Assembly (NCBI RefSeq): GCF_001612885.1
Contig: NZ_BDBH01000002.1
Span: 558,016-622,015, forward strand
Reading direction: 5' to 3'
Origin: Nocardia harenae NBRC 108248
GTDB taxonomy: Bacteria > Actinomycetota > Actinomycetes > Mycobacteriales > Mycobacteriaceae
DNA length: 64,000 nucleotides
The first letter of the stretch is position 1; every line of letters starts with the position of its first letter. Shown one piece after another: positions 30,114 to 42,330 of the stretch. The notes beneath the pieces are model-generated. The model searched no databases. It was given only the letters and a program-made list of their open reading frames with translations, and was not told the origin of the DNA. The position numbers were made by a program, and so were the translations under genes.

Positions 30114-31223
30114 GTGTCAACCGCCGCATCCGGCCGCATGCGAGCGCGTGACCTCGATCGCGTGAACGCATCCGGGCTCCTGGACGCCGCCTACGCGGAG
30201 GGGCAGCTCGGCGGCGACGAGTATCACGATCGCGCCGCCGAGGTCGCCGCCGCCACCACGATCGGCGACCTGCGCGCGCTGGTCGACGATCTGCAATTGC
30301 CCGCGGCCAGGGTCAGGGCCGCCACCGAGGGGGTGCAGGCGGGCACCGGGTGGCGGCCGCTGCAGGGTGGCGCGGGCCACTACCCCGGCCGCACCCGCGC
30401 GCGGAACGCCGATCGCGAGCGCACCCGCGCGGTGCTCGACACCGCGCACGGCGAGGGGCAGCTCACTGCCGCCGAGCACGCCGAGCGGCTGGAGCTGCTC
30501 ACCGCCGCCCGCTCGCTCGACGACCTCGCCGAACTCGTCGACGACCTGCAGCGCGTGCCCGGCCCCGGCCTCGCGCCCCGGCAGCCGCCCAGCTACCGGG
30601 GCAGGTTGCGGATAGCGCTGGTCACCGTGCTCGCGCTGGCCGCCGCCACCGGCGGCTTCCTGGTGACGCACCGCGACGAGGTCGAGCCGCCCCCGGTGTC
30701 GTACCCGGGGATCGCCGAGCTCGGCGCGGTCGAGCCCGTGGTGATCGCGACGCCATCGCTGGTCACCGCGGAGGGGCTGGCCGAGTTCCTGCGCCGGTAC
30801 CGGGAGCAGTTCGGCGATCTACAGGTCGATGAGATCGACCTCTTCCCGGAGCACGCGAGCATCGCGCGGGCCCTCCCCGGCCAGCCGAATCGCCTGGCGC
30901 ACTACACCTACCGCGGCGGTTTCGAGCAGGACCGGGACCTCACCACGCGCAAGACCGACACCCCCGTGGTCGACCTCGGCGTGCTCGACTCGGCGGGCAT
31001 CGGCGCCGCGCTCGCCGCCGCCCCCGGCGCCGCGAACGTGCGCGACGGCGCGGTCTCGCACCTGAGCGTCGAGCCGGTCGCCACCGATTTCTACGCCAGG
31101 TACGGACTGCCGCGCGGTGTGATTTCGGTCGAGATCTCGGTGCGCAACGAGTTCTCCGAGTCCGGGCGGCTGCTGCTGGATCAGACCGGGCGGATCGCCA
31201 ACGTCTGGCCGTTCGAGGAGTGA
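30114..31223 (+). CDS. DUF1707 membrane protein with two DUF1707 domains
   Basis: A 369-residue protein. Two copies of the short DUF1707 helical domain occur at about residues 8-60 (RARDLDRVNASGLLDAAYAE, DEYHDRAAEVAAATTIGDL) and 96-145 (ARNADRERTRAVLDTAHGE, AAEHAERLELLTAARSLDDL). A single membrane helix follows (about 163-182, IALVTVLALAAATGGFLV), then an extracytoplasmic domain of about 185 residues with no recognised family. DUF1707 is common in actinobacterial membrane-signalling proteins; function unknown. A 30%-range paralogue follows immediately, sharing the layout. The start is GTG without a clear ribosome site, so it may be leaderless. Confidence 0.82.
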   Translation: MSTAASGRMRARDLDRVNASGLLDAAYAEGQLGGDEYHDRAAEVAAATTIGDLRALVDDLQLPAARVRAATEGVQAGTGWRPLQGGAGHYPGRTRARNADRERTRAVLDTAHGEGQLTAAEHAERLELLTAARSLDDLAELVDDLQRVPGPGLAPRQPPSYRGRLRIALVTVLALAAATGGFLVTHRDEVEPPPVSYPGIAELGAVEPVVIATPSLVTAEGLAEFLRRYREQFGDLQVDEIDLFPEHASIARALPGQPNRLAHYTYRGGFEQDRDLTTRKTDTPVVDLGVLDSAGIGAALAAAPGAANVRDGAVSHLSVEPVATDFYARYGLPRGVISVEISVRNEFSESGRLLLDQTGRIANVWPFEE

Positions 31224-31234
31224 GGAGCGAGCGG

Positions 31235-32026
31235 ATGGCGCAGCGAACCGACGGCGTCCGGGCGCGGGACCGGGACCGGGTGGATGCCTGCTCGGTGCTG
31301 GACGCCGCGCTGGCGGACGGCCAGCTGAGCGCCGCCGAGCACACCGCGCGCACCGCGACGGCCATGCGCGCGAAGTCCTTCGGCGAGCTGGACGCGCTCG
31401 TCGCGGACCTGCAGATCCCGGCGAACCTGGTGGACGCCCCGATCGTCCGGGTCGACCGGCGCACCCCGCGCCGCTGGCAGGTGCCGGTCGCAGTGCTCGC
31501 CTCCGCCGCCGCGCTCGGTTTGCTGACGGGTTTGCTGAGCAGCTGCGGTGGCCCCGGCGGCCCGGATGAGCAGCTGCCGGTGCTCACCAGCGGGGCGGGC
31601 ATCGCCTACTTCCTCGCCGAGTACCGCGCCGAGTTCGGCGACACCGTCGCCGACGAGGTCACCTTCTACCCGGAGTACGTGCTGGTGGACCGGGCGCTGC
31701 CGGGCAGCCCGCAGAGCACCGCCGACTACCACTACGACGGCGGCTTCGGCCGGTACACCGCGAGCACCGGCCGCAAGCCGGACGAACCGACCCTCGATCT
31801 CGCCGAGCTCGACGTGCGGCGGCTGGCCGGGCTGCTCGGGGGCGCGCCGCAGACGGTCGGGCTGCCGGACGGCGTGATCAGCCACATCATCGTGGAGCGC
31901 GAGGCCGGGGCGCGCAGCGAGGCGGCGCCGATCGCCCGGATCTATGTGCGCAGCGCCGACAACCGCTCCGGCTACCTGGAGACCACGCTCGGCGGGGAAC
32001 CGCTGGCAATCAATAAGCCCTCCTGA
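31235..32026 (+). CDS. DUF1707 membrane protein, tandem paralogue
   Basis: A 263-residue protein with one DUF1707 domain (about residues 7-60, VRARDRDRVDACSVLDAALA, AEHTARTATAMRAKSFGEL), a membrane helix (about 83-102) and an extracytoplasmic domain similar to that of the upstream gene (SGAGIAYFLAEYRAEFGDTV, YHYDGGFGRYTAST, GLPDGVISHIIVERE). The ATG at 31235 lies 8 nt after GAGGAG, which also spans the previous stop, so the two genes are an operon. A GTG at 31220 is an alternative start. SSCGGPGG after the helix could mimic a lipobox but comes too far from the N-terminus. Confidence 0.8.
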   Translation: MAQRTDGVRARDRDRVDACSVLDAALADGQLSAAEHTARTATAMRAKSFGELDALVADLQIPANLVDAPIVRVDRRTPRRWQVPVAVLASAAALGLLTGLLSSCGGPGGPDEQLPVLTSGAGIAYFLAEYRAEFGDTVADEVTFYPEYVLVDRALPGSPQSTADYHYDGGFGRYTASTGRKPDEPTLDLAELDVRRLAGLLGGAPQTVGLPDGVISHIIVEREAGARSEAAPIARIYVRSADNRSGYLETTLGGEPLAINKPS

Positions 32027-40867: not shown

Positions 40868-41704
40868 ATGACTTCGCCGAACGCGGTTCCGGACCGGATG
40901 CTCACCCGGATCGGCGGCCTGCTGCGGCAGGCCGAGTCCACCGACAACGAGCACGAGGCCGAGGCGTTCCTGGCCGCCGCGCAGCGGCTGGCCACCCGCT
41001 CCTCGATCGACCTCGCCGTCGCCCGCGCGCACGTGGCGGGCAGGCAGCGGCGCGCCACGCCGATCCAGCGAGTGATTCCGATCGGCGAGCCGGGCCGGAA
41101 AGGTCTGCGCACGTACGTGCAGCTGTTCGTCGCCATCGCCGCGGCCAACGATGTGCGCTGCGATGTCGCGCGCACCTCCACCCAGGTCTACGCCTACGGC
41201 TTCGCCGGCGACATCGACGTCTGCGAGGCGCTGTACACCAGCCTGCTGGTGCAGATGGTGCGGGCCAGCGACCAGTACATCAAGTCCGGCGGCTACCGCT
41301 CGGCCACCGTCGAGAAGGTGGTGGTGCAGAAGCGGCTCGGGCGCACCGTGCGCCGCCGGGTCGCGGCGCCGGTCGCGCCGGTGACCGCGCGGCTCAACTT
41401 CCAGGCGGCGTTCGCGGCGCGGGTCGGCAAGCGGCTCGCCGAGGTCAAGGCCGAGGTGGTGCGGGACGCCGCGCCCGCCGAGGCCGGTGCGCCAGGCACC
41501 GCGCTCGCGCTGCGCGAGAAGGAGCTGGAGCTCACCGACTTCTACCGCAGGACCTCCGAGGCCAGGGGCACCTGGCGCGGCGCCGCTGCCTCGCTCACCC
41601 CGTCCGCCGACGCGCGCAGGGCCGGTGACCGCGCGGGCCGGGTGGCGCGGCTCGGCACCGCGCCCGAACTCGGCGCCCCGCGCGGCGAGCTGCCCGCGCC
41701 GTGA
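40868..41704 (+). CDS. DUF2786 domain protein
   Basis: A 278-residue protein starting MTSPNAVPDRMLTRIGGLLR, with the short DUF2786 helical domain at about residues 9-50 (AESTDNEHEAEAFLAAAQRL). The rest is a basic region with KVVVQKRLGRTVRRRV and a helical end. Cytoplasmic; function unknown. It is divergent from the sugar importer (126-bp gap holding both promoters). Its stop is the TGA of the first GTGA in a chain of 44-bp repeats that leads into the metallohydrolase gene, so the two are co-transcribed. Confidence 0.85.
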   Translation: MTSPNAVPDRMLTRIGGLLRQAESTDNEHEAEAFLAAAQRLATRSSIDLAVARAHVAGRQRRATPIQRVIPIGEPGRKGLRTYVQLFVAIAAANDVRCDVARTSTQVYAYGFAGDIDVCEALYTSLLVQMVRASDQYIKSGGYRSATVEKVVVQKRLGRTVRRRVAAPVAPVTARLNFQAAFAARVGKRLAEVKAEVVRDAAPAEAGAPGTALALREKELELTDFYRRTSEARGTWRGAAASLTPSADARRAGDRAGRVARLGTAPELGAPRGELPAP

Positions 41705-41836
41705 CCGCGCGGGTTGTGCGGCGCTCCGCCGTCGACGAGGCGCCGTGACCGCGCGGGATATGCGGCGCTCCGCCGTCGACGGGACGCCGTGATCGCGCGG
41801 GTTGTGCGGCGCTCCGCCGTCGACGAGGCGCCGTGA
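41701..41836 (+). repeat. Three 44-bp tandem repeats forming a chain of GTGA-coupled mini-ORFs
   Basis: Units lie at 41701-41744, 41745-41788 and 41789-41832 and are nearly identical. Each encodes a 15-residue peptide from GTG to TGA: VTARVVRRSAVDEAP (41701-41748), VTARDMRRSAVDGTP (41745-41792) and VIARVVRRSAVDEAP (41789-41836). Each TGA overlaps the next GTG in GTGA. The chain starts at the DUF2786 stop and ends at the GTG of the metallohydrolase, whose N-terminus VTARDSQRGAVYDAE resembles the peptides. The unit therefore looks like a tandem copy of that gene's start. Confidence 0.93.
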
Positions 41837-42330
41837 CCGCGCGCGATAGCCAGCGTGGCGCCGTCTACGACGCGGAGCAGCTGGTGCGCGGCGCCTTCGA
41901 GCGCGCCGACGAGTTCGGCAACCGCACCGTGGAGGTGTTCGGCTCGCAGCTCACGCTGCCGGTGGAGCGGCGGTTCGGGTCGGTGGAGTCGGTGGCCGGG
42001 TACGTCGAGCGGGTGCTGGCGCTGAACTGGGTGCGGGCGGGGTGGGAGCGGGCGGCGGTTCCGGTCCGGGTGCGGGCCAGGCGCGGGGCGTCCGCGGCGC
42101 ACTACGAGCCCGACGGCGCGGTGCTCGCGGTGCCGTTCGAGCGGGTGTGGGCGCTGCGCGAGCTGGTGGTGCTGCACGAGCTGGCGCACCACCTGGCGCC
42201 GTCCGCCGAGCCCGCGCACGGCCCCGCCTTCTGCGCCCGCTACCTGGCGCTCGTGGACGGGGTGATCGGGCCGGAGGCGGCGCTGCTGCTGCGTTCGGCG
42301 CTGCACGGCACCGGGGCCAGGATCGGGTGA
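41833..42330 (+). CDS. TIGR04338-type putative zinc metallohydrolase
   Basis: A 165-residue protein with the zinc motif HELAHHLAPSAEPAHGPAF (about residues 116-134). HExxH gives two ligands and the following AHG a likely third. Upstream parts include TVEVFGSQLTLPVERRFGSV and YVERVLALNWVRAGW. This matches the actinobacterial TIGR04338 group, whose substrate is unknown. No signal peptide. The GTG start overlaps the stop of the third mini-ORF, so its translation probably depends on ribosomes passing through the repeat chain. Confidence 0.87.
   Translation: MTARDSQRGAVYDAEQLVRGAFERADEFGNRTVEVFGSQLTLPVERRFGSVESVAGYVERVLALNWVRAGWERAAVPVRVRARRGASAAHYEPDGAVLAVPFERVWALRELVVLHELAHHLAPSAEPAHGPAFCARYLALVDGVIGPEAALLLRSALHGTGARIG

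Follow-up and report, generated by a model that had tools for sequence, protein, structure and literature searches.

The window under study, a 64-kb stretch of the Nocardia harenae genome, contains a gene for a DUF2786/DUF7168 protein (product families PF10979/PF23771) followed on the same strand by a gene for a TIGR04338 (Rv0185-like) metallohydrolase, which matches TIGR04338 with an E value of 5.7e-65. The DUF2786 reading frame is open from 40805, and the start used here, 40868, was chosen by us. Positions 41701-41832, between the two genes, consist of three 44-nt units placed head to tail with no indels; TRF reported this array as 41696-41843, with a period of 44, 3.4 copies and a score of 261. 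Each unit is a GTG-to-TGA frame of 15 codons whose TGA sits within the next GTGA, and the GTGA sites of the chain start at 41701, 41745, 41789 and 41833. The features of the junction are as follows.

40868..41704, plus strand: upstream gene, DUF2786/DUF7168 protein, with its TGA stop within the first GTGA.
41701..41748, plus strand: mini-ORF 1, 15 codons and TGA, read from the sequence (unit 1 is 41701-41744).
41737..41740, plus strand: SD-like tetramer GAGG in the last part of unit 1, putatively serving mini-ORF 2 (computed pairing -5.9).
41745..41792, plus strand: mini-ORF 2, 15 codons and TGA, read from the sequence (unit 2 is 41745-41788).
41781..41784, plus strand: SD-like tetramer GGGA in the last part of unit 2, putatively serving mini-ORF 3 (computed pairing -5.8).
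41789..41836, plus strand: mini-ORF 3, 15 codons and TGA, read from the sequence (unit 3 is 41789-41832).
41825..41828, plus strand: SD-like tetramer GAGG in the last part of unit 3, putatively serving the metallohydrolase start (computed pairing -5.9).
41833..42330, plus strand: downstream gene, TIGR04338 (Rv0185-like) metallohydrolase, with its GTG start within the fourth GTGA.

The sequence, TRF and a repeat search agree with the coordinates, the 15-codon frames and the GTGA overlaps that an initial annotation had proposed for this junction. The four overlaps also tie the stop of the DUF2786 gene to the start of the metallohydrolase gene, as that annotation had claimed, and its further point that a period of 44 preserves the chain is correct and holds for every period of 2 mod 3. 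The mini-ORF peptides are, in order, MTARVVRRSAVDEAP, MTARDMRRSAVDGTP and MIARVVRRSAVDEAP, the initial valine being shown as M. Units 1 and 2 differ at 4 positions, units 1 and 3 at 1 and units 2 and 3 at 5; all five variable positions change an amino acid, and they are too few for a test of selection within the array. Tandem copy number can be misjudged in short-read drafts, and the assembly that carries the array is a draft of 25 contigs, so an assembly artefact has to be considered. The units are not identical, however, the repeat covers just 132 bp, and like chains are seen elsewhere, both at other junctions and in genomes complete in one contig, that of the closest relative (G021) among them; we therefore regard an artefact as extremely improbable.

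In G021 the array has zero units, and the DUF2786 and metallohydrolase genes meet in a single GTGA. The metallohydrolase is 92% and the DUF2786 protein 95% identical between the two genomes. The number of units varies between species (3 in N. harenae, 0 in G021). Outside Nocardia, a -4 start in frame with the metallohydrolase was found at 8 of 10 loci, one of these eight starts being located 54 nt ahead of the homologous metallohydrolase start. Of the remaining two loci, inspection by eye of L073 showed two GTGA sites with a six-codon ORF between them, and L084 gave only a partial protein match. The direct overlap of the two genes is probably the ancestral state.

When unit 1 was compared with both strands of the window, its best match outside the array was the metallohydrolase start, in register and with 31 of 44 bases shared (runner-up 29; sliding matches along the plus strand had a mean of 13.8 and an SD of 3.2). 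Units 2 and 3 shared 31 and 30 bases with the first 44 bases of the metallohydrolase gene, the runner-up reaching 28 in each case. At positions 13-16, unit 2 and the metallohydrolase gene read GATA, and units 1 and 3 read GTTG. The in-register match thus supports, as probable, the earlier suggestion that the unit is a duplicated gene start. Since the unit resembles the downstream gene's own start, it probably arose on site and did not come in as a mobile repeat; the simplest account of the array would be that the metallohydrolase gene start was duplicated in place and that more rounds of duplication followed. A dispersed origin was also considered. A search of the N. harenae genome with a 92-nt query at an E value of 0.001 gave two matches, both at the array, and no further copies; partial, weak matches to the unit were present in 15 of the 147 other genus genomes. 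This single locus, together with matches that are only weak and partial in the genus, ruled out a dispersed origin.

The same junction was read across the genus in a sample of one genome per species, 148 of the 150 genomes being covered (G056 and G096 had no place listed and were left out). Gene starts were fixed by homology and the nearest start codon, and a junction was counted as linked when each step of its linker ORFs was a strict -4 overlap. Twenty junctions were direct -4 overlaps, 59 were joined by linker ORFs and 69 were without a -4 chain (46 gaps of at least 15 nt, 7 of 9-14 nt and 11 of 0-8 nt, 3 junctions at -1 and 2 longer overlaps). Because almost half of the junctions (69/148) do without a -4 chain, the relay is not indispensable. 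Among the 59 chained junctions, 44 had one linker step, 13 had two, one had three and one had four, the sole three-step junction being the N. harenae array itself. The gap exceeded 30 nt at 98 of the 148 junctions. In two other species, TRF detected tandem repeats at this same junction (L016, period 138, 2.2 copies, in a 433-nt gap; L103, period 105, 2.0 copies, in a 727-nt gap), and duplication therefore seems to enlarge the gap at this place repeatedly.

Of the 68 gapped junctions flanked by DTGA on both sides, 59 were connected. Shuffling the gaps at equal length connected a mean of 26 of the 68, with a maximum of 34 in 200 sets, and a length-jittered shuffle control connected 13 of 68, with a maximum of 22. 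When the junctions were thinned by tree distance, the connected counts were 41 of 48 and 25 of 32, compared with 18.6 and 11.7 in shuffles. The lengths of the 68 gaps left remainders of 1, 0 and 2 on division by three in 46, 17 and 5 cases, respectively, in keeping with what relays would predict, whereas the distribution was flat (15, 13 and 16) in the 44 gapped junctions missing one DTGA; the lengths of remainder 1 are partly shared by descent, but the result survives thinning. For gaps of at least 30 nt with a remainder of 1, the linker frame was open in 39 of 41, compared with 14 and 18 of 41 for the other two frames. In 46 sister pairs (cherries) the gap length differed in 31, by a multiple of 3 in only 11; at least one member was coupled in 19 of the pairs and both in 11, and the step number differed in 7 of these 11. 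A plain same-frame test would fail here, and the claim rests on the chain test. The genus data favour a retention of ribosome relays at the DUF2786/metallohydrolase junction.

We judge that the array is not a product of chance, because it is missing from G021 and because the coupled state shows a selection-like retention in relatives. According to a neutral account, the array would have expanded by chance in GC-rich DNA, in which open frames are common, and would have no role. One period in three would be 2 mod 3 by chance, every variable unit position alters an amino acid and the array was found in a single genome among those examined, all of which suits such an account. Coupled linkers are nonetheless retained across the genus above two shuffle controls, and we hold a neutral repeat to be improbable, although its coupling could make the array harmless and, in that sense, still neutral.

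Another rival concerns initiation. Since each unit places GAGG or GGGA before the next GTG, a contribution of SD-like pairing is likely within the array, where the first GTGA site has a computed pairing of -3.4. No RNA structure above that of dinucleotide shuffles was found for the array (z of -0.5) or for its units (0.4, 1.5 and 0.5). As the array provides the metallohydrolase start with a GAGG (-5.9, compared with -2.8 at the same start in G021), improved direct initiation competes with the relay: the array would be a ribosome-binding site whose last unit initiates the metallohydrolase, and the chained frames would be a by-product of duplication. Across the genus, SD-like pairing was weaker in coupled junctions (direct and one linker) than in uncoupled gaps of at least 15 nt, pairing of -5 or below being reached in 32 of 64 and 36 of 46, respectively (Fisher p 0.003). 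The latter count indicates that independent starts exist in the genus. Junctions with two or more linkers run opposite to this trend, with strong pairing in 12 of 15, which also fits independent starts. On the other hand, the GAGG is short and 4 bases away from the GTG that follows, and a pairing of -5 is reached at 34% of random positions in the window. Moreover, a ribosome-binding site leaves unexplained both the relays in 59 of the 68 gaps with DTGA at both ends and the one open frame in 39 of 41. We thus consider this explanation rather unlikely, and retain the relay as the preferred reading.

Open linker frames coupled at both ends would also be expected if the linker encoded a genuine small protein and the array were a repeat inside its gene. 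We counted linker substitutions by codon position in six close pairs with linkers of equal length and obtained 39, 26 and 22 at positions 1, 2 and 3, whereas the downstream gene gave 16, 11 and 93 in seven pairs. The pairs were chosen by hand, one genome being used in two of them, and one of the seven linker pairs (51% different) was omitted from the sum. Linker peptide sequences also vary between clades. A conserved linker peptide was rejected, as the linker substitutions lack the codon-position bias of the downstream gene, and a small-protein gene is in our view very improbable. Because linkers show no third-position excess, what is retained seems to be the unbroken path for ribosomes rather than a peptide.

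Other arrays were looked for by TRF over 862 kb (14% of the genome), which yielded 92 rows with periods of 20-200, some of them overlapping. Eight of these rows had a period of 2 mod 3, and three of the eight were DTGA chains between two open frames: the 44-nt array described above, a 71-nt array at locus L276 and a 50-nt array at locus L271. Their positions are given below.

L276:13866-14022, minus strand: 71-nt period, two units of identical sequence that each form a 24-codon ORF with GTGA overlaps.
L271:11378-11485, minus strand: 50-nt period, two ATGA-linked 17-codon ORFs between two open frames.

At L276, AGGAGG lies ahead of each start, and the flanking genes are presumably transporter-like. 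There is one 71-nt unit in G021 and there are two in N. harenae. The junction was coupled in all 30 of the best-matching genus loci, of which 13 were direct, 5 had one unit of 24-25 codons, 5 had two units and 7 had a single ORF of 46-50 codons; in six of these seven, two copies were found inside the ORF. The 71-nt unit may be dispersed, as suggested by matches of 80-81% at G000:C5:552687 and C1:665689. At L271, the two 17-codon ORFs of N. harenae correspond to one 32-codon ORF in G021, with a length difference of 5 nt, and both linkers are -4-coupled at both ends. The survey of this junction comprised 30 loci, one without a downstream match; coupling to the nearest start was seen in only 9 of the 29 readable loci, N. 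harenae and G021 included.

Two gene pairs from the window served as control junctions, with 30 loci each picked by match score, a smaller sample than that of the focal junction. The first was a direct -4 overlap in 4 of 30 loci and had no gap above 19 nt. The second was direct in 25 of 30, with five gaps of 14-38 nt, none of one- or two-linker length. Long linkers are thus not universal among junctions, since the control pairs are without them and 98 of the 148 focal gaps exceed 30 nt. In the window itself (30114-32026), the first control pair consists of two -4-overlapping genes whose protein starts, RARDLDRVNASGLLDAA and RARDRDRVDACSVLDAA, are alike, and the two genes may therefore be tandem paralogues.

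Two further repeats were noticed during this work. A repeat of about 75 bp (peptide beginning MSESGPEAGAERGHGGP), related to the array in its architecture, is truly interspersed, with 62 matches in the N. harenae genome and at least one match in 140 of 148 genus genomes (loci L305-L334, L267, L272, L278 and L281; for example G000:C2:265327, C9:244169 and C11:232258). Thirty loci collapsed to 11 readable sites, 4 loci being without the search word and 3 without a recognised unit start; at 10 of the 11 sites an open frame of at least 223 codons ends in the DTGA with which the first unit begins, and there are 1-6 units per site. At a period of 75 the repeat reads through in frame and extends the N terminus, with repeated starts. 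The period is 77 at one site (L331), where the ORFs are stop-linked and 26 codons long, as in a MIRU. The other repeat, a 72-bp array on the minus strand (L265:3412-3565), carries GTGAGCGACGGGCGCGAAGGCGG at every unit start and begins at the stop of a 418-codon open frame.

Taken together, these sequence comparisons make it reasonably probable that ribosomes leaving the DUF2786 gene reach the metallohydrolase gene by way of the 44-nt chain, over DNA derived from a tandem duplication of the metallohydrolase start; the passage of ribosomes is likely, and the duplication probable. A duplication containing GTGA would copy a stop and a start together. If its length were 2 mod 3, a chain of mini-ORFs would result and the downstream gene would remain coupled, because such a duplication carries stop and start jointly; a length of 0 mod 3 would instead give an N-terminal extension of the downstream protein, and a length of 1 mod 3 would break the relay. 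The genetic code itself dictates these three outcomes. Hand-over at each GTGA could occur by termination-reinitiation or by elongating ribosomes that open the next start, and the GAGG supplied by the units probably assists it. As the initial annotation proposed, ribosomes might then have to terminate and restart four times, and the number of units might set the ratio of the two proteins and differ between strains. PMC6728339 gives reporter support for termination-reinitiation in H. volcanii and, with the exception of one tested pair, in E. coli, and describes the help of the SD as strong but variable. In PMC7538156, RRF depletion in E. coli left coupling unchanged, a result that its authors read as arguing against re-initiation as a major mechanism. 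The array is like the pairs of PMC6728339 in its co-directed genes and its 4-nt stop/start overlap at each step; it differs in having three serial 15-codon ORFs where those pairs have one overlap.

The closest parallel in the literature is with MIRUs, which are attributed to Supply 1997 (as cited in PMC12548453 and PMC2734929). MIRUs have a unit length of 40-100 bp and lie in tandem between genes (PMC2734929), with an internal ORF whose coupling to the next gene is at -4 nt (PMC12548453); the units at senX3-regX3 measure 77 and 53 bp (PMC4213456). The array is similar in that short tandem units, here three of 44 bp, lie between co-directed genes, and in that the -4 ORF spacing is found at four GTGA overlaps, from which we infer the coupling itself. 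The senX3-regX3 unit sizes are, like 44, 2 mod 3, and copy number varies between genomes, in the present case between species. Unlike a MIRU, however, the unit resembles the start of the downstream gene, and since the array is not interspersed in its own genome we do not class it as a MIRU. By analogy, it likely works like the coupled ORF of mycobacterial MIRUs, which is proposed to hand ribosomes between genes.

PMC12548453 also describes short upstream ORFs by which ribosomes are brought to the gene that follows. The mini-ORFs resemble them in that they would bring ribosomes to the next start and in that the peptide need not matter, but they are serial, lie between two operon genes and vary in number and length among relatives. 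In PMC2734929, variable tandem repeats upstream of Mtb-fpg1 have a proposed effect on transcript level; like the array, they are tandem units between two genes and are missing in related species, but the passages on them contain no description of start/stop-linked ORFs. We found no earlier report of such chains or of a MIRU-like repeat in Nocardia in the literature searched, which lay mostly outside subscription papers.

We describe the array as a variant relay, one to which the gene it serves probably gave rise on site; linkers have a long record at this junction. A broader view, for which we put the chances at about even, is that some operon junctions in Nocardia are kept as relays: inserts of nearly any sequence would be retained if they read as a chain of ORFs coupled at -4, frame-shifting indels would add or fuse steps, peptides would be irrelevant, and the array would be a newborn local MIRU-like cassette. 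If the relay reading is true, the 44-nt array would illustrate how MIRU-like elements can begin from a duplicated gene start, and would give a plausible origin for MIRU-like repeats. A simple rule would then apply, in which the reading frame ties the length of an insert to the number of steps, and operons gain DNA while keeping translational coupling. The junctions would also provide a natural series of 0 to 4 steps for gauging the cost per hand-over. These results suggest that many Nocardia gaps annotated as intergenic may be translated.
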